Source: a virus
Length of the DNA stretch: 22,552 nucleotides
Direction: 5' to 3' (one strand)
Virus record (IMG/VR): IMGVR_UViG_3300010430_003213
Location: 1-22,552 of that record
In this document: one piece after another, positions 2,846 to 20,751 of the stretch
Layout of the letters: each line of letters begins with the position of its first letter
Position numbering within the stretch: position 1 is the first letter of the stretch
The notes under the pieces: generated by a model
What the model saw: only the letters and a program-made list of their open reading frames with translations
Databases searched by the model: none
Told to the model about the DNA's origin: nothing
Position numbers and translations under genes: made by a program

Positions 2846-5001
2846 TAAAGTTCAGGTCCACCTATTACAATACTAGCTGGCTGTTCTAGAGACTTCTCGG
2901 ACTTCTTACCTTTCATGATGTCCTCCTCCCACTTGATCAGTTTGGTCCGCAACTGCGCGGCCTTACGTGGATTCTCTTTGCCAATCTCATCAATAAGTTT
3001 ATCAGCCTTAGCTCGGATCTCCCCAGCTGTGCCACCACTTGGGCGACCCTTCTTAGGCCTAGAGGCGAAATCTACAGAGGAGGTGTCGGTCTTCAGCATA
3101 TCATCTACGAGGTCCAGCTTCGCCTTATGCGTCTCTGGCTCCTCCTGAAGCATAGCACCTACAGCCCCACCCTCAGGATCCTCTGGATTGCCCACATCTC
3201 GGAGGACAAAGTAGCTACGAACCTTTTGCAACTCCTCAGGGGTAACCTCAATAGAATCCTGTGAATCATTCGACTGTTGCTCCCCTAGGAAGTGTACAGC
3301 GTTACTTAGCCGTTCAACCAGGTTGGGACCACCTCGGACGATACCTTGCCTGTCTAGGCCATATTCTGATTTGAGGATCTCCATCTCCTGCTCGGTGAAG
3401 TTAGCACCACTTTGGGTAATAACACGACCAATGTTTAGAGCCGCACCTCTAAGTTGCTCCTTGAGGGCCTCGGCTTCATGCTTAGCCCTACCTGGGAGGA
3501 GGAGAACCCTATCTACCCGCTTTTGTAGCCTAGCCAAATCGGTCAAGTGCCCAACCAATTCCTTACGAGCCCTACTCCTAGCTAGGTATTTGGTCTTATC
3601 CCCAGAGGTTTGGTCTGGTCTCCAAGGTAGGTTACCCTTCTTATCCCCACCGATAACTCGGAAGACATCCTGGGATGCATAGCTACCCTTGACAGGGGTT
3701 TTACCTTTGCCACCACCACCACTCCCTTTGCGAGCCATGGCTTTCATCGTGGCTAGGTCAATCTTCTTTCCCGTGTAGTAGTTCTTCAGGAACCTCTCAG
3801 CAATGTCATACTTCATCGCCTTCAGGTCTGATATGGTCTTCAGATACGCAGCCTGTAACTCCTGGTCAACCCCGGGCATCTCTGCCTTCATCTTGGCAAT
3901 GGCCCCGGAGATCTTATTCATCATGTTCTTCTCTAGGACAGCCTGCTTCAGGGGTAGCAGTTTGGCATCCCTCTCAGCGTCCCCGGTCAGAGCACCTCTT
4001 TGTTTAAACAACTTGTTAAGGTTGGCTTCCTGTGCAGCCAAGTCTGTACGGATAGCATTCTGTAGAGTTTGGACGACTGGATTAGCCCCACCAACCCCTT
4101 GTCCAGAGGTCATTTGCAACACCCTGAATAGGCCAGCACCAAAGCCAATGAAGGCCTTACCCATGGTCCCCTTATCTTCCCAGGCTAGCCCCGGGTCAAT
4201 CTGCCCATTCTCAATCTGTGCATCTAGGGAGAAGATCTTAGCAACCCTCTCCTGTGATCGTTTTTGAACCTCGTCATAAAGGCCTGAGACCATCTCTGCA
4301 TGCTCGTCTCTAAGCCCCTCTTCGGTAGCAAAGAAGCGACCCTCTGCCTCTGCCTTTTCCTTAGCCCCTTGTAGGTCCAACTCTGCAGCCGCAAACCGGG
4401 GACCAACAATGTCATTCCAAGCGGCCTCTGTACTAGCTGCAAACAGTTCTGCATCCTCTGGAGATACACCATTAGCTACCATGGTAGCCTGGAACTGCTC
4501 AATCTCTCGTTGCTTAGCCTGAACCCTTTGGATATCCTGTGCTTCTTGGGCAGCTGCCTGTCTAGCAAGTTCTGCCTTCGGTCCATCCTCTGGAATCTCT
4601 GGCCCTGCTATATGAGGGGCATCCTGTAGCAAGGCTGCCTCTGCCTTGGGTCCATCTTGTGGGACCATTTCTGCTTTTGGTCCATCTGGAAGTACCACTC
4701 CCGGATAATCAGCATTTAGCAAATTCCCTTGAGCGTCGGGGATAAACTGAGCCTCTTCGAATTGAGGTTCAGATGCTCTTCGCCTAGGTCGTTTCTGTGG
4801 CTTAACCGCCTCTACAGCCCCTAGGACCGCACCTTTAACAGCCTCACCTACCTGGCCAAGTTTCTCCTGGCCCTGAGCGGCTAGTTGCTGTCGTTCCGCC
4901 TCCTCTTGTTCTGCTCGAACCCTGTCCTCCTCCGCAAGGACAGCCTCGTTTATGTCTACAACGTTGCCGTGCCTGTCGTATATGTAACCGTCACCAGCCA
5001 T
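2845..5001 (-). CDS. Large coiled-coil internal virion / ejection protein (718 aa)
   Basis: The start and stop codons overlap those of both neighbours by one base (TAATG). The N-terminal region is a Glu/Gln-rich helix (about 20-50), followed by a basic cluster (about 68-75) and a proline-rich linker holding three copies of DGPKAE at about residues 106-111, 116-121 and 139-144. Residues 150-410 are strongly helical and rich in Ala, Glu, Lys and Gln, probably coiled coil. A glycine-rich hinge (about 424-434) leads into a second charged helical region and a short hydrophobic C-terminus. It has no recognisable enzyme motif. Together with its neighbours it resembles an ejectosome component of a short-tailed phage; the role is inferred from size, composition and context. 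Confidence 0.65.
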   Translation of the reverse strand: MAGDGYIYDRHGNVVDINEAVLAEEDRVRAEQEEAERQQLAAQGQEKLGQVGEAVKGAVLGAVEAVKPQKRPRRRASEPQFEEAQFIPDAQGNLLNADYPGVVLPDGPKAEMVPQDGPKAEAALLQDAPHIAGPEIPEDGPKAELARQAAAQEAQDIQRVQAKQREIEQFQATMVANGVSPEDAELFAASTEAAWNDIVGPRFAAAELDLQGAKEKAEAEGRFFATEEGLRDEHAEMVSGLYDEVQKRSQERVAKIFSLDAQIENGQIDPGLAWEDKGTMGKAFIGFGAGLFRVLQMTSGQGVGGANPVVQTLQNAIRTDLAAQEANLNKLFKQRGALTGDAERDAKLLPLKQAVLEKNMMNKISGAIAKMKAEMPGVDQELQAAYLKTISDLKAMKYDIAERFLKNYYTGKKIDLATMKAMARKGSGGGGKGKTPVKGSYASQDVFRVIGGDKKGNLPWRPDQTSGDKTKYLARSRARKELVGHLTDLARLQKRVDRVLLLPGRAKHEAEALKEQLRGAALNIGRVITQSGANFTEQEMEILKSEYGLDRQGIVRGGPNLVERLSNAVHFLGEQQSNDSQDSIEVTPEELQKVRSYFVLRDVGNPEDPEGGAVGAMLQEEPETHKAKLDLVDDMLKTDTSSVDFASRPKKGRPSGGTAGEIRAKADKLIDEIGKENPRKAAQLRTKLIKWEEDIMKGKKSEKSLEQPASIVIGGPEL

Positions 5002-6424: not shown

Positions 6425-9400
6425 TATACCAATTTACTCCCTGGCAACTTGAAGGTGTCACCATACCCAGCGGCCTCAACAGCCAACCCTGTAAGTTCAA
6501 AAGAAGCCCCTGGACTAGACCCGGGTGGTACTTCCCTAATTAGAAATTTAACTGATTGAATCCTCTGATCTCTGAGGATATGTCCTACCTGATAAACCTG
6601 ATCTGGCTTAGTAGCATCATTAATACCTAAGGCTCCACCCCCACCTAAGGTAGCATTACCACCTAGGGTGCCCTGGTCTAAAGCTGTGGAGACATCCCAC
6701 GTAGAAGTGTAGGCTTTATACGAGCGATAATTGAAGGAGATATCCACATCGATATTATGGTCACTACTATAATTACCTAGGAGAGATGCCCTGCGGATAT
6801 GCCACCTAGTTTGCAAGCCAGAGGGACGAATCCAAGGTGTCTCGATCTCAAGAGAGTAACTCTGACCAGCATCCTGGTACCCAGAGTCCCCCTTGTACAC
6901 GTAGATACCATCCCCCCTGAGGTAATAGTAGGTGTCGTCGATAACCGTTGCCGCCAACCCTGCATGTGAGGTGAAGGTGGTCCAGAAGCCATCATCATAA
7001 TCAAAGGCTAGAGTCCTGGCCCCATTCACGAGGAAGATAACTAGGGTATCATCTGGGAGGATAGTGGCATCCTCCACTGATAGGCTGTTATACGTCTCTA
7101 CGGGGGCACCAATGTAATTGACTGCCTCTCCCCGGTTAAGCCAATAGATACCCTTGTCACTCTGGAACATAACCCCCTGAGGGACCCGAACGATGGAGCG
7201 ACGGTTCTTACATCCTGTATCGGTACTAACCAAACGAGGCTGAGAGTAGGCGCCTACACCTAGGTTGTTAGGGCCGGTACCAGAGACCATAAAAACCCTG
7301 TCCCGTTTGAACACAACCAACTTGTTATCTAGGGTGGCTAGGCCTGTAATGTCTCCCCCATCTGGTGGGACCTGGACATACAACCCCTCATTGAACCCTA
7401 CCTGATCGTATTCAGACCCGGGCCTCTTAGAAAAGTAGACCCTAAGCGGCTCTTGGGAGGGGACGTAGAAGATACGGTCGTCGTATGAGAGGATTGACAG
7501 ACACCCCTCTGCGGCTACATTCCCCAATTCCCCAGAGGAGAGGTAGAGGACTTCGCCACTCTTCAAATCAGCCTCGGCTGTAGAGTCTACAATGGAAGCA
7601 GATCCGCTAGTGACATCACTGCCCGGATAAGAAGATATCCTGTAAGCAATGGCAGTACTATCATTATGAGTCCTGTATAAACTCGCTCGAACATCACCCC
7701 TCCTCGTAGCCGGGATCTGCGGCACTGTGATAGTCACATTGTCCGTACCTGGATCCGTAAAGTTTGTGCAGGTTAGGGGCACGGCTGTACTTTGCAACCT
7801 CTTGCCATTGACATCCGTCTGCTCATAGACAACATAGTAGAGGAGGGTTAGGGACCCTGCACCACCATCTGTTCTATTGATCGTGAACGGCTGATTATCT
7901 ACATCGTAGTCTAGGGTAGCCCCACTCTGCGTGAGACCGGAGGAGGAAACGGCTATCTCTGGATAGAACCAGAACCCCGCCTCATACACACTGGCCCCAT
8001 CATACTGCCACATGGAGGAACCACCAATGAAGAGGCTATCCTGCATCTCCACGGAGTCGATCTTGAGGTTACTACTAGTATCCAACCGGAGCAACTCTAC
8101 ATTGTCCTGCGTAAATGAATCTGACTGATCTTCAGCCACATCCACCCTCTGCTTAACCCCCACAGGGAGGGTTAGGACCGTCCCATCTAAGTGCAGATGA
8201 GGGAGGGGCTCAGACACAACGGAGGAGGCTAGACCCCTCTTGTAGACCCCAACCACCTCGAAGGAGCTATTCACGAGGAGGTAGGAACTCTGGAGGGTAC
8301 TACTATAGTGACAAAGGAAGACCCAATTCTGTGTATCCGTCCCACCTAGGGTCTCGTAATGCATCAGCTTGGATGCCAGGGCCAAATTTGTAAACCGGGA
8401 GACTGGGGTTAAAGTGCCATTGTAGGCCCCACCCACGGAGTAGATGGTACCAGAGACTTCGTAGATTACGTCCACATTCCCGGAGGTAACCTTACGGGGT
8501 TTGATACTCCCCTTCTCTGCTACGACACTATCTACTTGTCTAGACTGGGAATCGAAACCATCAGCATCGAACCAAATCAACTGTGTGGTGCCGTTACTAT
8601 CCCCAAATAGGAGCCAAACGTAGGTGGTGTTACCTGCGTACCCCTCTTCGTAGTCATACCCAGAGGAGAGCATGGTGCTAACATTGCCAGAACTCATATC
8701 CCCAGGTGTGGCTGTAATAGGGGACCTAGTTATGGGGCTAGTGTCCCCGGCCTCATCCGTGAAGAAGACCCTGACACCATCATTAGTATTCTCTTTGTAG
8801 GTGACAGCGACCATATGTACAGAGCTTCTTTGGATCCGAGCCACTGTCCACAAATAGTCTGTATGAAAATCCCCTAGGCCATAGTCAATCCTATTCCCAT
8901 CCAAATTGCCTTGGTTGAAATAGAAGCAGGAGATATCCTGTGTACTGGTATCCCTAAAGAAGACGCAGACTCCAGCCCTAGTTGGGAGAATCTGAACCTC
9001 CGTAGCCACGGCTGAGAGGAGGGCAGGCGCAGCTAAGATAGAACCATTAGCATCCTTGACCACAACGTACAAATTGGCCGTCTCCAACCATGCTGTCACA
9101 TAGATGGTGCCATCGGTTGCATGTACAGGCGTACTCTGTGTGGGCGAACGAGAGGCTACAGGGTCATCCGTAACGGACCAAGCTGGGAGGTCATCCTTAT
9201 CCACCCAATAATCCAGACTGGAAGAGTAGGAGTGCAGGTTGCCATCCCCAAATGCTACTAGTTCATCCCCCAATTTGGTCAAATGAGTTTTGCCAGAAAG
9301 GGCAGTCTCATCCAGATCCCTATGGTTAACTTGGGTATATCCAGTCCGTTTGGCAATTGTACCAGTCTTGGTATAGATGCCATTTTTTATGTCTAAGAGG

Positions 9401-12561: not shown

Positions 12562-13800
12562 CTAGCTGATGCTAATAACACCGTTGTTCTTAGGTTCCCG
12601 ACAAGCGAGGTCAACCCACATACGGACTCGGACTTCGATACCATCCGCAGCACTAAGACGGGCAGACCGGAGTCCATCAGTCGTAGTAATGTGGGGAACC
12701 GGGTCCATGTGATGGAGGGTCCAACAATCCCGCTTCATAAGGTAACCCTTATCATCGGGGCAGAAGGCTCCAGCCATGACAGTCTTAACACCGTCCGGGG
12801 AGGCGTACTTGATGCTGGGCATACCAAACGGGGTAGCCGAGGCATCCTGTCTAATAGCACGAGCGCCAAGCTCTTGCTCCAGTCGATGCCAATTGGTATG
12901 ACTCAACCAGATGGTGTCATAGTTAGCACCCAACCGACGCATTTTAGCCGCGCACTTCTTAAGAGTCTCTTCGATACTACCGAGGTAGGATTGGCGGAAA
13001 CCCTGCAGTCGCTGCACGTCATTGGGACGATCCGAGGAACCCTTGAAGGTACCGGACGTCTCTGCCGTCTCTGGAATCCAACCTGCAACACCAATAACAA
13101 CACTACCATCATCATCTGCGCCAGTGGCGTCATCTGCACGGTAGAGCAATTCGGTATCTGCAAAGCCGGTATCATCGGTAACCGTAAGGGTACCAGCGTC
13201 CAGATCTACACCCGTGACATCAGTGACCTGGCCATTAGCCGCATCAGTGATGAACATACCAACGTGGAAGTTAGCCACATCGTCTGCATTCGCAAGGTTG
13301 ATAACGTTACCAGAGGGGGTGCCAGAGACAGTCCCCAATTTGCCATCACCATCTCGCCAGAGGTGCTTCTCAAGTTCCAACGAGATGCTCTTGACGATAT
13401 CCTCAATCTCAGCTTCCTTCACATCGTAGAAGGCGCCATTACGGTCCCGAGCTGCCCGGATACTCTCGTCATCCAGGGCCAACACACCGAAGTATGCATT
13501 ACGTTTCAGCTCAAACCGGGTAACTCGACCACGACCAGCTGCAGCACTGTTAGACAGGGACTGAGCCATCGCGAAGGAGGAACCGATTGATTGGGGCATC
13601 CCATACTTGACTGGGATGAAGTAGTAGGCCCCGGTAGATCCAGCGGTGTCACCACCAACTAGGTCGTCCTTCTTGGGGAGCCATTTGAATAGGTCACGAT
13701 CCATCTCAGCCAATTGGTTGAGTCGGATCTGTGGAAAGAGTTCTTTATACGCCTTTGAGAGGTTAGCAATACTAACTGGAGGCGTGGTTGCCATTGCCAT
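12562..13800 (-). CDS. Major capsid protein, HK97-fold type (412 aa)
   Basis: The protein assembles the icosahedral head. It has a polar N-terminal arm, an extended segment (about 70-105) with a FELKRNAYFGVLALDDESI core (about 96-114), and a long helix (about 124-150), like the E-loop and spine-helix region of HK97-fold coats. A beta-rich insertion around residues 160-238 probably forms a surface domain. The C-terminal part ends in a beta strand, and the length of 412 is usual for such coats. The ATG at 13798-13800 has an AAGGA ribosome site nine bases upstream; the second ATG two codons later is a possible alternative. It lies directly after the scaffold gene, supporting the assignment. Confidence 0.8.
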   Translation of the reverse strand: MAMATTPPVSIANLSKAYKELFPQIRLNQLAEMDRDLFKWLPKKDDLVGGDTAGSTGAYYFIPVKYGMPQSIGSSFAMAQSLSNSAAAGRGRVTRFELKRNAYFGVLALDDESIRAARDRNGAFYDVKEAEIEDIVKSISLELEKHLWRDGDGKLGTVSGTPSGNVINLANADDVANFHVGMFITDAANGQVTDVTGVDLDAGTLTVTDDTGFADTELLYRADDATGADDDGSVVIGVAGWIPETAETSGTFKGSSDRPNDVQRLQGFRQSYLGSIEETLKKCAAKMRRLGANYDTIWLSHTNWHRLEQELGARAIRQDASATPFGMPSIKYASPDGVKTVMAGAFCPDDKGYLMKRDCWTLHHMDPVPHITTTDGLRSARLSAADGIEVRVRMWVDLACREPKNNGVISIS

Positions 13801-13818: not shown

Positions 13819-14892
13819 TTATTCGGTGCCCCCCTCGGACATCGCTTTGAAGAACTTGGCCCTGGAGGCAGCTTTAATCTCCTCATAGGACATATCCTTC
13901 ATCGACTTCTCCTGGGGAACATTAGATGAAAGTGAATTTGATAGTGTCTTATTCGCCTTCTTCTTACCATCTGGCTTTGGCGATTGTGCCGGCGTTGCTT
14001 CCTGTGCCGGATTCATTTTTCCCAGAAGTTTCTCGTACCGGGTGTTAACCTCGGCCAGGCACTGCTCTGGGGACAGTGGCGCCCCTCGACCCTGTTGCTC
14101 CTCCGCATAGGCTTGTGCGACGGCAAACATATCAGCAGCCACATCGGCTTCTGAATACGCATCCACCACCCTAGCCACTGCCGGAAAGGCTTCTGTGTCA
14201 AAGGTCTTTGTGGCCTCTAGCATACTCTCTTGGTAAGCCACAATTGCTTCATGCATACCCTCATTCCCCTGGGTATCTTGGGGTGGCTTCTCCCTAGCCG
14301 ACTTTAATTCTGCAATCTCCTGCCTAAGCTCTTGCAGTTCTTTCTGCCCCTTGTAGTCGTCAGGGGCCAAGTCTCCAAGGCTCTCGTAATAAGCAGCCTT
14401 GGCAATATCGATTAATTCTTCTTGTGAGATACCAGCAGCTTTAAGGAACTGGATTGGGTTGCTCTTAGCCTGGTGTTGGGCCTTCTGGTAGAGTTTGAGC
14501 TGATCCTCATACTCCTTTTTCGTGGTTTCAAAAGAGTCCTTATCTTCTCGGAGCTTTCTCTCCCTGTCGAGGAGTCGCTTGAGGACTTTTGATTCCGGCT
14601 CTTGGATAGTATCGGTAGCCCCTGCTTGCTCAGGTTCTGCTGCCTCAACTTCCGCTTCTGCTGTCTCTTCTTCCGCGCTCTCTTCCGTACCTTCAGATTC
14701 GCTGGTCTGGGTTTCAACCGCTGCCTCGCCTTCGTCTGCATACCACTCTGGATGCTCTGCCTTCCTTTGGGCTACTAGATCATCTAAGGCGGTACTTACA
14801 TCGATCTTCTCAGAAGGGGCGTCGGATTCACGAACTACCTCGGTTACGTTAGCGTTTGCGTGTACGATTTCAGCTTGCACTCTATCTGACAT
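13819..14892 (-). CDS. Scaffolding protein (357 aa)
   Basis: This protein guides procapsid assembly and is then released or degraded. The visible features fit a scaffold: a highly acidic, low-complexity segment (about 55-97), a heptad-rich charged coiled coil (about 98-150 and 180-205), an Ala/Glu-rich helical middle, and a basic C-terminal stretch (about 308-320) followed by a short amphipathic helix (about 335-355) that in other scaffolds binds the coat. There is no protease motif. The gene lies immediately upstream of the coat gene, and the start overlaps the end of the sulfotransferase-like gene by 11 bases. Confidence 0.75.
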   Translation of the reverse strand: MSDRVQAEIVHANANVTEVVRESDAPSEKIDVSTALDDLVAQRKAEHPEWYADEGEAAVETQTSESEGTEESAEEETAEAEVEAAEPEQAGATDTIQEPESKVLKRLLDRERKLREDKDSFETTKKEYEDQLKLYQKAQHQAKSNPIQFLKAAGISQEELIDIAKAAYYESLGDLAPDDYKGQKELQELRQEIAELKSAREKPPQDTQGNEGMHEAIVAYQESMLEATKTFDTEAFPAVARVVDAYSEADVAADMFAVAQAYAEEQQGRGAPLSPEQCLAEVNTRYEKLLGKMNPAQEATPAQSPKPDGKKKANKTLSNSLSSNVPQEKSMKDMSYEEIKAASRAKFFKAMSEGGTE

Positions 14893-15541
14893 TGTCTTTC
14901 TTTCCGTCCAAATGGATCACTGCCCCATGCGAACTGGCGCTAAATGGGGTAAAACCTAATCTCTTGGCCAAGGGGCCATCTGTCTCCCATACAAGGTCGA
15001 TCATCTCCTGGGAGTATTTCTCCTTGTACTTCCTATCATTCTGAGAGACATTGAGGGGTGGAAACTTGCGAGGGTCTGCCTTGAACTTTAACAACTCCTG
15101 TACCCCCTCGTACATCTGAGCCGTGTCTATAAACACCCTAGTCTGGGGCTGGTAGAAGATCTCGAACCAATGGGAGTAGAGGCCGCCCTCAAATTCCTTC
15201 CACAACCGTTCGTCTGATCTGACAGAGATGAGGGTGTAGCCTTCATCCTTAATGGCCTTCTTAGACATCCCTTCTATAAAGGACTTGAAGGTACCACCAT
15301 AGCGGCGAATGGCGTCCCTACCTTGTACAGACCGATGGGCATGATTAAATAAGCTAACATACCAAGTCCAGGGGTCTCTGATGGTTCCAAAGAACTCGTG
15401 GTGCCCAGGGTGGAGTTTCTCCATCTTGGCGGCTGTTCTATGCCCGAATGAGTCCCGTACACTATTCTTCTGTAGGAAGTCTCGTAACCAGGTTCCCCCG
15501 GTCTTGGGCATATGGATCTGAGTCAGCCTCTTTTTAGCCAC
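14882..15541 (-). CDS. Sulfotransferase-like P-loop protein (219 aa)
   Basis: The protein has the two PAPS-binding motifs of the sulfotransferase superfamily. The 5'-phosphosulfate loop is HMPKTGGTW at residues 10-18, with Lys13. The 3'-phosphate site is IRDPWTWYVSLF at 54-65, with Arg55 and Ser63. Known members transfer sulfate from PAPS to sugars, lipids or proteins. The start is a GTG overlapping the portal stop by eight bases; the first ATG, at codon 11, would remove part of the loop. A GAGG lies about 10 bases upstream of the GTG. An enzyme in the middle of the portal-scaffold-coat cluster is unusual. The substrate is unknown; sulfation of virion proteins or host surface glycans is speculation. 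It could also be an inactive homologue. Confidence 0.75.
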   Translation of the reverse strand: MAKKRLTQIHMPKTGGTWLRDFLQKNSVRDSFGHRTAAKMEKLHPGHHEFFGTIRDPWTWYVSLFNHAHRSVQGRDAIRRYGGTFKSFIEGMSKKAIKDEGYTLISVRSDERLWKEFEGGLYSHWFEIFYQPQTRVFIDTAQMYEGVQELLKFKADPRKFPPLNVSQNDRKYKEKYSQEMIDLVWETDGPLAKRLGFTPFSASSHGAVIHLDGKKDNVR

Positions 15542-17450
15542 CCGTACCAGCCCTCTCTACAGGGATTCCCTGAGCCGAAGTAGCGACGGCACTTTGGAGA
15601 TTCCCCTCTGGGCCAATATTCTGTGGATCAAAGTTACCCTGGGCAGCAGCTGCCATCATTGCCTGCTCCTCTAGTAGTCGTTGCTGCTCATTGGCCTGGG
15701 CCGTGGCTGCATCAACAATCCCTTGTGCGAGGGCAATCCAATCCCGGTAGTTCTGTAGGATTTCTTCTGGGGCCTTCTGCTCCACCCGGCGAAGGTAGGT
15801 AAGGTGGATGAATGGGATACCCGCGTTCAAGTCTTGAAGGGGATCTGGTTGCGGGAATTCGCCCCTATCCAGGAGGTCTGCCGTCTTCTTGATATTATCC
15901 ATACCAATACTACCTAGGGCCTGGACCTCCTCCAAATCTGGATGTCCCAGGTTAGACTTATACTGGTTCGTATCGATTAGGCCCCTAAAGGCTAGGGAGT
16001 CCAACTCATCCATACGGGCAGCTGGGGACATGTTGAGAACACTGGAAGCCTCAATCTGGAGAACGTATTGCCGATTCTCTACTAGGTCCTGAACTTCACT
16101 CCAGGCGATGTCATCTATGAGGCGGCGGTTATGGAAACGAACCGTCCTGTCCGTCCCCCCTTTGTATAGCTCTGACGCCAATTCCATGAAATGTTCTGCC
16201 ACTTCGAGGAAAAAAGCCTCATACCGCTGCGCTTGAAGGGAGAAGCGTTGGTTTTCAATAGTGTTAAATTCACGGAGGGCCTTGGAAGAGTCCAACCTGG
16301 CCTGGGAGGGTAGTTTAGCCTGGGCCGATAACTGGGATATGCCCGCATATTCAAAAGCGGACGACCGAATCCTCTCCCTCTCTGCATAAATCTCCGGTGA
16401 GATCCCTGGCCAATTCATAGCCTCAGGGGTTTTGCCTCTGTAGTGAATCACCCTAGCAATCTGGTTATCCAGTTGCGTCTTAACGATACGAGAAGATCCG
16501 TCAACAAAAATACGAGGAACACACATCAAATCCTGTGCTAGTCGGATTTTGTGATTCAACTCATTCATCCGAATTTGGAAGGGGGCAATCTCCTCTACAA
16601 GGGGTTTGCCATAAAATCCTGTAGGTAGGTTTTCCCAACGGAAGAAGACGAATGGAAATCTGTCTCTGGTATAGTTCTCATCTACGAGGGTGGCACCGTC
16701 AATGACAATGGAATGCCGTCCGGGGGAACCATCCTTGGGTAGTTTCCACGCCTCGATGACAACCACATTATCTGCCGATGGGGTTCTGTAGGAGGTGTAG
16801 TAGAACTGACCAGAGGATTGGGCCTTCTGGATATCATCAAATCGATCTGGGTAGGCCCATTGCAGGGCTACTCTAGGGACCAGCTTACGTTGGTACATCT
16901 GGAAGGGCTTCTGCCCACTCTGTACCTCTCTCTGATCCACGATGATCTCATCCGGCATCACCCTCTCTGTATGGATCTCATCCCCATCTGAGAAGACCTT
17001 AAGAGCACCGATGGGTGCCCAGCAGGCATCGTTAAATACCTTCTGTCCCTTTTCCCAGATGTTCTGGTGCTGGAACTCCCCATACATGTACCTGTCTAGT
17101 TGCTTCCCCAACCTTTCGACAGAGAAGGAGGCATCCTTGACCACGGGGGTGGGTTTAGGCTTGTTCTTGCTAATTAGAGCTGATACAGTATTAACAACGG
17201 AGGCCACCAAATTCTCGGCTGTATTGCTGATAGGGCGGTACTGAACCTGCCTCTCCGTGTGGGAGCCCCAATCCAACCCAGGCAACTCCCTATTACAGTA
17301 CAAAGCTGCATTGATGAAGGTCTGCTTATGGATGGCGTATTGGTTCTCCTCAATACTTCTTACGGTATCGAAGAGGGTATCATGTACCTTCGAGGCTGCC
17401 GGATCATCCGGTTCACCCTCCCACCAGAATGTATTCAGCCGAATTGGCAT
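15534..17450 (-). CDS. Portal protein (P22-type, 638 aa)
   Basis: The portal is a dodecameric ring through which DNA is packaged and ejected. The 638-residue length falls in the podovirus range (P22 portal is about 725). The centre contains long helical segments, including a run with APFQIRMNELNHKIRLAQ (about 285-302), and a later helix-rich region (about 385-425) with the SSKALREFNT pattern common in portals. The C-terminus (about 570-620) is Gln/Ala-rich and helical, as in portals with a barrel. The order large terminase, portal, scaffold, coat supports it. The ATG overlaps the upstream stop as TAATG, so it is probably translated by coupling. Confidence 0.8.
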   Translation of the reverse strand: MPIRLNTFWWEGEPDDPAASKVHDTLFDTVRSIEENQYAIHKQTFINAALYCNRELPGLDWGSHTERQVQYRPISNTAENLVASVVNTVSALISKNKPKPTPVVKDASFSVERLGKQLDRYMYGEFQHQNIWEKGQKVFNDACWAPIGALKVFSDGDEIHTERVMPDEIIVDQREVQSGQKPFQMYQRKLVPRVALQWAYPDRFDDIQKAQSSGQFYYTSYRTPSADNVVVIEAWKLPKDGSPGRHSIVIDGATLVDENYTRDRFPFVFFRWENLPTGFYGKPLVEEIAPFQIRMNELNHKIRLAQDLMCVPRIFVDGSSRIVKTQLDNQIARVIHYRGKTPEAMNWPGISPEIYAERERIRSSAFEYAGISQLSAQAKLPSQARLDSSKALREFNTIENQRFSLQAQRYEAFFLEVAEHFMELASELYKGGTDRTVRFHNRRLIDDIAWSEVQDLVENRQYVLQIEASSVLNMSPAARMDELDSLAFRGLIDTNQYKSNLGHPDLEEVQALGSIGMDNIKKTADLLDRGEFPQPDPLQDLNAGIPFIHLTYLRRVEQKAPEEILQNYRDWIALAQGIVDAATAQANEQQRLLEEQAMMAAAAQGNFDPQNIGPEGNLQSAVATSAQGIPVERAGTGG

Positions 17451-17668
17451 TATTTCTGCTCAGGAAAGCTGGGGCTAAACCCTAGATGGGCAAACTGCAT
17501 ATCCATCTCTTCCACTCCCCGACGTTCCACTTCTGGGTTAATCTCTGGCTCAGCCTCGACTGGGGCCTGCTTATCTAGAACCAGTTCGTATTGCTCACAC
17601 TTAAAGGCTGCCACGCCATTCCGACGAAGCATCTTAAGCATCTTTTCTACATGTACTGGATCTACCAT
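17450..17668 (-). CDS. Hypothetical small protein upstream of portal (72 aa)
   Basis: A 72-residue frame that overlaps the end of the M15 peptidase gene by seven bases and ends in a TAATG overlap with the portal start, so all three are probably coupled. The N-terminal half carries a short basic helix (about 5-20), followed by a Glu/Pro-rich linker and a C-terminal tail. No family is recognised. Small conserved frames in front of portal genes are common in podoviruses, but their roles are mostly unknown. Confidence 0.55.
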   Translation of the reverse strand: MVDPVHVEKMLKMLRRNGVAAFKCEQYELVLDKQAPVEAEPEINPEVERRGVEEMDMQFAHLGFSPSFPEQK

Positions 17669-18093
17669 CTAGCCCTATACCCTCTGTTATCGTAATGCAC
17701 AAAATTCTTATAAAGGCCCAAGCCACCCTCTTCCATCACGCCTAGCCGAATCAGCCCTTCGATGATGACCTTGACTAGGGGCGGCTCTACACCTTGGACC
17801 ATGAGGTCTACGGCAAATGCGTCTTTGTCGTAAAGGTGGTAGGAGCCATCAACCCCACCAACAGCCTTATTATACTCAGGGGTACGGTAGGCGCTGGTAA
17901 TAAAGACTGTGGAGCCTAGGAACTCTCGTAGGGGCTGCAGATTCTTCTCCGTGAATGCCTCAAGCCCCTCTACCTTCTCTTCAGGGACGGGGGTACCATC
18001 CCGGCAATCAAACTCATACAAATAGAAATTCTTTGATAGTTGCGGCCTCTCTTGATTCGTAGCCGGCATCTCTTTTGCTCTTACATCAGCCAT
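17662..18093 (-). CDS. M15A-type D-Ala-D-Ala carboxypeptidase-like lysin (143 aa)
   Basis: Zinc peptidases of family M15A cleave peptidoglycan cross-links or stem peptides and serve as phage endolysins. Here the N-terminal core (about 18-60) carries the LSKNF...DGTPVPEE pattern. TSAYRTPEYNKAVGG lies at 66-80, followed by SYHLYDKDAFAVDL at 84-97 with the zinc-ligand candidates His86 and Asp96, and FVHYDNRGYRARW at 131-143 with His133. The His-to-Asp spacing is about three residues longer than in the usual SxHxxGxAxD motif. The start at 18093 was chosen because a GGAGG lies 10 bases upstream; the longer frame from 18129 adds residues inside the terminase gene. No signal peptide is present and no holin gene is adjacent. 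Confidence 0.75.
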   Translation of the reverse strand: MADVRAKEMPATNQERPQLSKNFYLYEFDCRDGTPVPEEKVEGLEAFTEKNLQPLREFLGSTVFITSAYRTPEYNKAVGGVDGSYHLYDKDAFAVDLMVQGVEPPLVKVIIEGLIRLGVMEEGGLGLYKNFVHYDNRGYRARW

Positions 18094-19730
18094 TCTGATC
18101 CATCCTCCGCGATAAGTACATTCGTCCACTCCTCTTCATACTGGTCATTCTGCTGTTTAGCCTTGTATCTTTCACAGGCCTCTTTATACTGGGCATCGTC
18201 CCAACTTTGATAAAACTCGTGTGTCTCTGGCTCCGGTGGTACCACCTTGGTCCTAGAGAAATGATGTAGAGAGAACCGCCAGGTATAGAGGAGGGCATCA
18301 CAGAGGTGGTTATCCATCCTCTTATCTTCCTTCAGCTTGTTCCGGCGAATGGCTGTTTTCTTGTCCATCCCCTTTAGATCCCACTGGAGGTGCATCATCT
18401 CATCGTACATGTCGGAATTGGCCAAAAGCTTCACTTTGCCGTCGTAGAGGTCCGAATTGAGCAATTCTATGTGATCGAACTTCTCAGTCTTCTCTGCAGC
18501 CTGGATAAAGAAGCCATATTGCTGATTCAGCGTCTCTATGACCATTTTCGCCAGATTTCCGGTATCTGCGACCATTTCTTCGATTTGGCCGTTAAATTTG
18601 TCCTGAACCCTCTGAATTAGCGCCGCTATCTGCGGAACGATCATATGTGGGCTCTTAAAGTCGTAAACTTGGTACAGAGTGTCTAAATAGGGCGAATAGG
18701 CGACTACAATGAGGGCAAAGTCGTCATTGAACCCCATATCCATCCCCATGATGTACCGCCAGTCCATATCCTTTGGCAAACCATGCTGATTGTACTTCTC
18801 CCCCTCTAATCTAGTCCAAACAGCCCTACAGGCAGAGGGGCCGCCATCATTCGAAACCAATTGGTTGAGGGCGTAGACCATCGTGTCCCCCATGGAGACC
18901 CACTTGCCCAGGGCCTCCCGCATCCAGGTGGGGTTGTCGTCGGACCACTTCTTCCTAGCCTTATCCTCTAAGAAGTTCTCCCAGATGTGCGGACAGAAGG
19001 TGTTTTCTTGAACCGTCCATGTGTGCCGGGACCACCTATGCATCTTCTTCGGATGATCGGTCCAGAACTTCTCTGGGCGGTTAAAACTGCGGGTAATTAG
19101 GTCGCCATCCTCATCCCGAAGGTTCGGACACGTTGCCTCATAGAATGGACCATCCAGGACGGACCCAGGAGTACCAATGATGCAGATAGAGCCATTAGTA
19201 TCGTTAGTAGCAGCTCTAAGGATGTCATCAATAAGTTCTTCAAAGATATGTACCTGAAATGACTTGCACTCATCGATTAGGACCAGCTGGTAGGCCCCTC
19301 CTCGGAGTTTTTCTATGTCTTTCCCCGTTTCGGCACCATTTAAGAAGATTTTGGAGCCATTTGGAAGGGCTATGGTGTTATCTGCCCTCTTATACTCCAG
19401 ATTTAGGGCGTATTTACGGCTAAATTCCGCAAATGGGTCCCAATACAGCCGTTTTGCCGACCGGAGGGTTAGAGTGATGATGGGGACGACACATCCAGGG
19501 TTTTGTAGGGCGGCTATGAGGGCGTAACTGATCGCAGTATGGGTCTTACCCGCACGGCGGGGGGTTAGCAGCGACTTTCGTCTATCTGGATCGGTTACAA
19601 ATAGCTGCTGTTCTTCAAAAAGATCAGCTAGAATAGCTTTCCAGGCGGATTCGTCCCTTTCTGCTTGGACTTTGGCGCTTTTGTTGCTGGTTCTTTGCTT
19701 TTGGAAGAGGATGTCTGTGGTGTCTGACAT
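18081..19730 (-). CDS. Large terminase subunit (packaging ATPase and nuclease)
   Basis: This motor protein cuts and packages concatemeric phage DNA into the procapsid. The N-terminal ATPase has a Walker A, PRRAGKT at residues 57-63, a Walker B, LVLIDE at 149-154 (Asp153, Glu154), and a coupling motif CIIGTPG at 183-189. The C-terminal nuclease has the three acidic positions expected of an RNase-H-like fold: Asp331 in MGMDMGF, Asp389 in VADTGN and Asp478 in HLCDALLY. The 549-residue length is typical. The ATG at 19730 is the only ATG before Walker A, but it has no clear ribosome site and lies 103 bases inside the preceding gene, so coupling is likely. Confidence 0.92.
   Translation of the reverse strand: MSDTTDILFQKQRTSNKSAKVQAERDESAWKAILADLFEEQQLFVTDPDRRKSLLTPRRAGKTHTAISYALIAALQNPGCVVPIITLTLRSAKRLYWDPFAEFSRKYALNLEYKRADNTIALPNGSKIFLNGAETGKDIEKLRGGAYQLVLIDECKSFQVHIFEELIDDILRAATNDTNGSICIIGTPGSVLDGPFYEATCPNLRDEDGDLITRSFNRPEKFWTDHPKKMHRWSRHTWTVQENTFCPHIWENFLEDKARKKWSDDNPTWMREALGKWVSMGDTMVYALNQLVSNDGGPSACRAVWTRLEGEKYNQHGLPKDMDWRYIMGMDMGFNDDFALIVVAYSPYLDTLYQVYDFKSPHMIVPQIAALIQRVQDKFNGQIEEMVADTGNLAKMVIETLNQQYGFFIQAAEKTEKFDHIELLNSDLYDGKVKLLANSDMYDEMMHLQWDLKGMDKKTAIRRNKLKEDKRMDNHLCDALLYTWRFSLHHFSRTKVVPPEPETHEFYQSWDDAQYKEACERYKAKQQNDQYEEEWTNVLIAEDGSEWLM
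18104..18108 (-). promoter_or_regulatory. Ribosome binding site deciding the lysin start
   Basis: A GGAGG on the minus strand ends 10 bases before the ATG at 18093. It is a better start context than the in-frame upstream codon at 18129, which lies inside the terminase gene. Confidence 0.6.
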
Positions 19731-19930
19731 GGGATAAGCTTGACTACATGCTCCAGTGGGACCCAGGTATCCTCTTTCGTATCATCTTGGATGACCAGGA
19801 ACCTGTATTCATTAATGTACATGGAGACATTCGGGTAAATCTTCTCATTTACCAGCCGAACCAAACCCCTAGATGCGCCAAAATCAACATCTGAGCTAAA
19901 CCTTGCTTCTTTTACCGGGACTTTCTGCAT
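19628..19930 (-). CDS. Hypothetical small beta-barrel-like protein (100 aa), overlaps large terminase
   Basis: The ATG has a GGAG seven bases upstream. Residues 1-65 form a compact strand-rich domain with an INEYRFLVIQDD step and a TWVPLEHVVKLIP C-terminal turn, like a small SH3/KOW-type barrel; the family is not recognised. The last 30 residues are a Lys/Ser/Pro-rich basic tail encoded in a different frame from the first codons of the large terminase, across a 103-base overlap. It starts inside the acetyltransferase gene (35-base overlap). Its position next to the terminase genes suggests a packaging or nucleic-acid-binding accessory role, which is inference. Confidence 0.55.
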   Translation of the reverse strand: MQKVPVKEARFSSDVDFGASRGLVRLVNEKIYPNVSMYINEYRFLVIQDDTKEDTWVPLEHVVKLIPCQTPQTSSSKSKEPATKAPKSKQKGTNPPGKLF

Positions 19931-20375
19931 AAATGGGCTCCAAATTCCTTCGTCGTGCTATAGCTGGGCAGTGGGAACCATTCCGAAACTGCCGACAATC
20001 TGGTGTTCTAAACGTATAGAGGAAGGACGTGCCCTCAGGGATCCCTGCAGCCTCCATAAGGGACGGAAAGAACCCAAGCCCCCTGAGTACAGGTTTTACA
20101 TAAACGTAGTGTAGAACGGGAACAGCGGCCTCCTCGAAAGCGATGAACCCTACCAGGGACCCCTCGGCCTCTCCTACGAGAACCGTCATGCCCCTATCTA
20201 GTAGCTGTTTTATTCCTTCGTCGAAAACCGCTGTAAATAAATTATTTGGGATGATCCCTGCAAATGGACTTCTTTTCCATCCGTTGGACCATGCATGTAA
20301 GATAAAGCTACGCTCCCCCTGATTTGGGGACAGATTCGCTTCCCTTACCTTTAGTATATTGTTGATCTTTGTCAT
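19896..20375 (-). CDS. GNAT-like N-acetyltransferase (159 aa)
   Basis: GNAT enzymes transfer acetyl from acetyl-CoA to amines. Here the core strand TVLVGEAEGSLVGFIAF (about 64-80) leads to a second strand, HYVYVK, and the acetyl-CoA-binding loop region PVLRGLGFF (about 95-103), which matches the R-G-x-G part of motif A, although the residues after it are bulky. A start at the ATG at 20375 was preferred over the upstream TTG because an AGGA lies six bases before it. The gene overlaps the candidate small terminase by 68 bases. The substrate is unknown. GNAT-like genes near phage packaging genes occur in other podoviruses as I recall, so this may be a conserved accessory. Confidence 0.6.
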   Translation of the reverse strand: MTKINNILKVREANLSPNQGERSFILHAWSNGWKRSPFAGIIPNNLFTAVFDEGIKQLLDRGMTVLVGEAEGSLVGFIAFEEAAVPVLHYVYVKPVLRGLGFFPSLMEAAGIPEGTSFLYTFRTPDCRQFRNGSHCPAIARRRNLEPIYAESPGKRSKV

Positions 20376-20751
20376 ACTCAATCCTGCGGAAGCCCCTCAG
20401 GAGATCGTACCACTGGTTCCTACCTAGGTTATTAGCCCACTCTAGGAATGCGTCAATCTTCTCCTCGATGGACATCATCTCTGCCATCTGCTTCTGTGAG
20501 GCTTGAATCTTGAGGTACATCTGCCCCAAGGAATTGGCCGCTTTGACCAGATCCTCCCCCTGCTTGGCTAATCGGGGGTCAAACTGATGTACGGAGCCAT
20601 CATCCGGCAATTCGTACATCTTAGCCTCATGCCTCGTGAGGTGCTCATTTAGCACCCTAAGTGACTTCTTGAGGACCGTCTCGATCTTAGGAGTGGCCCT
20701 GGCCTTATCCTTACGATTCGGCTTCTTCGTACCTATCTTCATCCTGCTCAT
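20308..20751 (-). CDS. Candidate small terminase subunit (147 aa)
   Basis: This is the first gene of the leftward operon. The N-terminal 30 residues are very basic (Lys/Arg-rich), a possible DNA-binding segment. About 62-105 form a continuous charged helix with coiled-coil potential, and the C-terminus is polar with a Gly/Ser/Lys tail. Small terminases bind the packaging start site, oligomerise through a helical core and contact the large subunit. Position, size and composition fit, but there is no clear helix-turn-helix, so the call is by context. A second ATG three codons in is possible; neither start has a strong ribosome site. Confidence 0.5.
   Translation of the reverse strand: MSRMKIGTKKPNRKDKARATPKIETVLKKSLRVLNEHLTRHEAKMYELPDDGSVHQFDPRLAKQGEDLVKAANSLGQMYLKIQASQKQMAEMMSIEEKIDAFLEWANNLGRNQWYDLLRGFRRIEYDKDQQYTKGKGSESVPKSGGA
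20382..20385 (-). promoter_or_regulatory. Ribosome binding site deciding the GNAT-like start
   Basis: An AGGA on the minus strand lies six bases before the ATG at 20375, which favours that ATG over the TTG at 20381. Confidence 0.5.

Follow-up and report, generated by a model that had tools for sequence, protein, structure and literature searches.

We analysed a viral DNA stretch of 22,552 bases (IMG/VR virus record IMGVR_UViG_3300010430_003213; hereafter the window), in which a sulfotransferase-like gene is embedded among virion genes. All genes named here lie on the minus strand. The terminase large subunit gene (18081-19730; phrog_2, E=2.4e-30) is followed by the portal, or head-tail connector, gene (15534-17450; PF12236, E=4.9e-6; phrog_332, E=4.4e-13), the sulfotransferase gene of 219 aa (14882-15541; PHROG 3347, profile and fold evidence below), a putative scaffold gene (13819-14892) and the major capsid protein (MCP) gene (12562-13800; NF033394, E=2.2e-13, below the cut-off). 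The scaffold gene was assigned because it precedes the major capsid gene, and its product had no match in protein family searches. The window also carries an M15 peptidase/endolysin gene between terminase and portal (17662-18129) and a GNAT acetyltransferase gene upstream of the terminase (19896-20381). Both are kept in the related phage L002 (63-75% identical), unlike the sulfotransferase gene.

The sulfotransferase reading frame is intact, running from a GTG at 15541 to a stop codon at 14882-14884. As the first-pass annotation had reported, it overlaps both neighbours; the overlap is 8 bp with the portal gene (15534-15541) and 11 bp with the putative scaffold gene (14882-14892). A scan for sigma-70-type signals found no match for a minus-strand promoter or terminator between 14882 and 17450; the gene thus lacks, within that scan, the promoter and terminator of its own that would mark a moron. 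Co-transcription with the virion genes is likely, judging from this arrangement, and it is because of the two-sided overlaps and the absent signals that late expression, also claimed earlier, is a fair conclusion and one that we uphold. A frameshift fusion of portal and sulfotransferase was considered and rejected, since the overlap, inspected by eye, contains no canonical slippery site. The gene has a GC content of 0.498, and its GC and codon fit fall inside the range of its neighbours; among the genes compared its GC1 is lowest and its GC3 second highest. Composition is therefore not decisive as a sign of recently acquired foreign DNA. The predicted protein is basic (pI 9.7), and no hydrophobic segment was found in it.

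Several searches bear on the identity of the product. With the single window sequence, PHROG 3347 was the only significant family match (E=6.9e-6, residues 4-186). Pfam, NCBIfam and PDB gave no significant match, which makes it a divergent member of the family, and no close relative turned up in phages, viral contigs or genomes. The window protein does not reach the curated cut-off of Pfam Sulfotransfer_2 (PF03567) and has no match to it, whereas 12 of 24 aligned relatives match that family at E<=0.01; PHROG 3347 is also matched by 16 of the 24. These relatives come from a DNA motif scan of viral contigs for H-x-PKTGGTW, which returned 48 loci, nearly all coding for small sulfotransferase-like proteins; alignment A5 comprises 24 proteins gathered via the PKTGGTW motif. 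A leave-one-out profile built from the 23 other phage sulfotransferases, with the window protein excluded, recovered the window reading frame at E=6.6e-24 (78 bits), against 2.5 bits for the next best window reading frame and 8.6 bits for the best of 2000 shuffles. Searched against PDB, the family profile reached SULT4A1 (E=8.2e-5) and heparan sulfate 6-O-sulfotransferase 5T03 (E=1.8e-4).

The AlphaFold model (pLDDT 80.5, pTM 0.83) resembles P-loop sulfotransferases and not another fold. All 50 matches listed in the PDB fold search are sulfotransferases or sulfotransferase entries. Their scores are modest: the best probability is 0.96, and none of the matches listed has an E below 0.001. The search of BFVD returned viral sulfotransferases with E down to 5.9e-5 and TM up to 0.60. 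Features of the PAPS-dependent sulfotransferase superfamily that are present here are a phosphosulfate loop with lysine, an R-x7-S site and, in the predicted model, a P-loop sulfotransferase fold. PHROG 3347, the leave-one-out profile, the PDB profile matches and the fold searches agree with the sulfotransferase identity first proposed. We regard sulfotransferase ancestry and fold as almost certain, and activity as an enzyme as probable.

The predicted 5'-phosphosulfate-binding loop PKTGGTW, with Lys13, occupies residues 12-18 (codons 15488-15508), and the predicted 3'-phosphate-binding site RDPWTWYVS places Arg55 and Ser63 in an R-x7-S arrangement (15353-15379), both as the first-pass annotation gave them. 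The residues invariant in A5 are H10, P12-W18, H34, R55, P57 and S63. Conservation of the loop in A5 follows from construction, because the set was gathered by that motif, but that of R55, P57 and S63 does not. Lysine occupies the Lys13 position in 27 of the 28 homologues from viruses and in 44 of the 60 bacterial rows, and the Arg55 and Ser63 positions hold arginine and serine in every one of the 28 viral homologues and in each bacterial one without a gap there; all three are kept among the homologues rather than lost. His34 (codon 15440-15442) aligns through the profile with the KSH-motif histidine of SULT4A1 but is offset in a second alignment, A8, so it is only the probable catalytic base. 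At Ala141 (codon 15119-15121), nearly all homologues carry the glutamate of an (R/K)-x-E-N motif (26/28 viral and 56 bacterial rows), and the window protein diverges from PHROG 3347 in lacking this near-invariant residue. The glutamate is a conserved family position that is not known to have a defining catalytic role. Because the branch mates described below (L106, L105, L110, L107 and L132) also have D-x-A there, Ala141 looks like a feature of the branch and not a mark of decay.

Comparison with L002 (IMGVR_UViG_3300010392_000413), whose head and tail genes are syntenic with those of the window, indicates that the gene is accessory. Identities are 88% for the portal, 74% for the terminase large subunit (TerL), 73-78% for the MCP and 53% for the scaffold homologue. 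In L002 the portal gene ends at 8905 and the scaffold gene starts at 8934, directly adjacent and without a sulfotransferase gene, and family profiles found none elsewhere in that record. Portal and scaffold genes are undamaged in the two phages alike, so an entire gene was cleanly gained or lost at this junction; presence in one phage and absence at the same junction in the other is the pattern of a moron. The description of the locus as the most conserved part of the virion operon therefore holds for the neighbours but not for the sulfotransferase gene. The suggestion that portal-scaffold intervals of related phages be surveyed led, in the window's own lineage, to two genomes, of which the nearest relative lacks the gene: among relatives sought by portal, MCP and terminase, only L002 was close. 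In the distant HTVC204P and DSL-LC06, this interval holds small hypothetical genes or spacers only. A phage whose portal is 88% identical does without the gene, so sulfation is dispensable for such virions.

In the phylogenetic tree, the window protein groups with six head-operon proteins and five further viral proteins (12 rows, SH-aLRT 99%). This phage-only branch has no bacterial member; the order inside it is poorly supported and the window branch is long. A first tree, with long branches, had placed the window beside L035, and the support was not strong; the tree was rebuilt with more members, and L035 and L106 are the same contig. The six head-operon proteins belong to syntenic phages (L105/L131, L110/L130, L106, L109/L133, L132 and L135) of a second lineage unrelated to the window phage. 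Their gene order is TerL, putative portal, putative scaffold, putative MCP, more head genes and tape measure, with TerL and tape measure named by PHROG and the others by order and size. The sulfotransferase gene lies within the head operon in all six. In L135 it directly follows the scaffold-like gene with a 4 bp overlap (3581-4240), and in the others it is placed after capsid and head genes. TerL identity to L105 within the lineage drops to 27-34%, which argues that the association with the head operon is old. Among L105, L110 and L106, the sulfotransferase gene is under purifying selection at a rough estimate, with dN/dS of about 0.24-0.45, similar to the scaffold gene; these values, from a simple Nei-Gojobori calculation with pS near 0.6, are themselves rough. 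Among the five other branch members, L138 and L143 lie near a tail-fibre-like gene, and L150 adjoins a virion-lysin-like gene. The exact junction differs between phages, and so the gene is not bound to a single partner.

Other arrangements were seen outside this branch. In L038, a sulfotransferase of a different branch (529-1080) shares 11 bp with the start of TerL and is thus the second, independent example of such a gene within a packaging operon. A tandem pair of sulfotransferase-like reading frames lies on a single viral contig in L051 (2679-4690). In L026 (4744-8745) and L032, the phage sulfotransferase gene is part of a glycan cassette that also encodes a reversibly-glycosylated-polypeptide-like protein, a pair of GT2-like proteins and a sugar epimerase. 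Phage DSL-LC06 (OR003941; L103, 326-4474) has glycosyltransferases, a sialyltransferase and a KpsC-like gene annotated upstream of its terminase.

Phage sulfotransferases as such are already known; what is new here is the membership of a phage-only branch and its unusual recurrent location among virion genes. Virus-encoded sulfotransferases have been described as auxiliary metabolic genes in OM43 phages, where they belong to Sulfotransfer_3 (PMC10580990), and in glacier viruses (PMC8290583). The accessible parts of these accounts mention no placement in a virion operon, and one of them calls the function of phage sulfotransferases unclear (PMC10580990). Full-text searches of open-licence papers, also in connection with superinfection exclusion, listed none that, judged by title and abstract, deals with such a placement. 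Three further phage sulfotransferases, used as tblastn queries against cultured phages, gave no match. The window model has a structural match in gp5.1 of Roseobacter phage SIO1 (family profile E=1.6e-12). Tail-fibre and head-tail adaptor genes are close to gp5.1, its loop differs (PKTATIA, against PKTGGTW), and the record does not label it a sulfotransferase. This divergent sulfotransferase (NC_002519, 4688-5254; L104) is present in all Siovirus records found. Among enzymes of solved structure, 5T03, heparan sulfate 6-O-sulfotransferase 3 (chain 5T03_B, fold probability 0.96), and the cytosolic SULTs share the K-T-G-G-T loop and the R-D-P..S site with the window protein; they differ in being eukaryotic and in having extra domains and other acceptors, and identity over the fold alignment is about 13%, with Foldseek E-values above 0.001. 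The 3-O-sulfation of galactose attached to PHROG 3347 is a sugar specificity taken from the name in the family description.

We propose that the gene encodes a soluble, basic, PAPS-dependent P-loop sulfotransferase, which would be produced between portal and scaffold by coupled translation of the late virion transcript. The Lys13 loop would contact the 5'-phosphosulfate and Arg55 and Ser63 the 3'-phosphate, with a histidine, probably His34, acting as base. The sulfate donor would be host PAPS, as the family matches, which cover part of the reading frames of a record that may be a fragment, include no PAPS-synthesis gene. Because the protein has no hydrophobic segment, it would act in the cytoplasm, on an acceptor found there during particle assembly. 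Most plausibly this acceptor would be exposed on the virion surface, either as a capsid, decoration, tail or fibre protein or as a glycan that such a protein carries, and its sulfation could alter particle charge or adsorption. The acceptor is the weakly indicated part, whereas late expression, enzyme activity and use of host PAPS are better grounded. We place the whole proposal, acceptor included, at a probability of roughly 0.4, and a virion-linked acceptor taken by itself at not quite an even chance. For the branch as a whole, marked by its RDPW motif, a dedicated virion-modification enzyme kept in the head or tail operons of unrelated tailed phages, giving particles sulfated on capsid, decoration or fibre proteins or their glycans, seems to us somewhat unlikely.

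The chief alternative to a virion-linked acceptor is that the same enzyme sulfates a host surface glycan, for instance a precursor of LPS, capsule or exopolysaccharide that still faces the cytoplasm. Late sulfation would then hide the receptor, so that progeny avoid debris or other phages are blocked. The sulfotransferases of L026 and L028 (weakly L027) adjoin GT2 glycosyltransferases and a sugar epimerase, PHROG 3347 carries the name galactose-3-O-sulfotransferase, the predicted fold is similar to that of heparan sulfate 6-O-sulfotransferase, LpsS sulfates bacterial LPS (PMC12445080), and presence in one phage and absence in another suits an accessory, host-dependent gene. However, Pfam and PHROG searches revealed no glycosyltransferase in the window, and the closest relatives are retained amid virion genes and not in glycan cassettes. 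Superinfection exclusion generally depends on early expression, and the late timing suits it poorly. We consider this reading possible but tentative. A virion protein or its glycan is slightly ahead because the enzyme is soluble, is probably made with the particle and belongs to a branch found among virion genes; glycan acceptors of some kind are hinted at by the glycosyltransferases beside other phage sulfotransferases.

The remaining explanations question the enzyme or its relation to the particle. A catalytically altered or inactive fold, retained for a binding role, perhaps in assembly or as a PAP binder, would fit Ala141 at the near-invariant glutamate, shared as D-x-A with branch mates, the uncertain placement of His34 and the long window branch; full retention of Lys13, Arg55 and Ser63 makes it improbable. 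Still less probable is an incidental operon position, the gene being a passenger or a metabolic accessory for sulfating a small molecule or for detoxifying some compound of the host. The gene is missing from L002, the junction occupied differs from phage to phage, and sulfotransferases are classed as auxiliary metabolic genes in earlier accounts (PMC8290583, PMC10580990), but it has been kept long-term among the virion genes of the second lineage, where TerL identity falls to about 30%, and the neighbours examined include no sulfur-metabolism genes. A kinase, NTPase or other P-loop protein, suggested only by a weak Pfam match to AAA_14 (E=0.074), is largely refuted by the leave-one-out profile, the R-x7-S site and the sulfotransferase fold matches, and we hold it very improbable.

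The recurrence of branch members among virion genes makes an old question testable, namely what phage sulfotransferases sulfate, and it offers a cheap test in the form of sulfate in phage particles. SIO1, which is in culture, would allow the question to be addressed. If particle sulfate were found, sulfation would join glycosylation as a modification of phage virions, and many phage sulfotransferases now labelled 'sulfur metabolism' would have to be relabelled.
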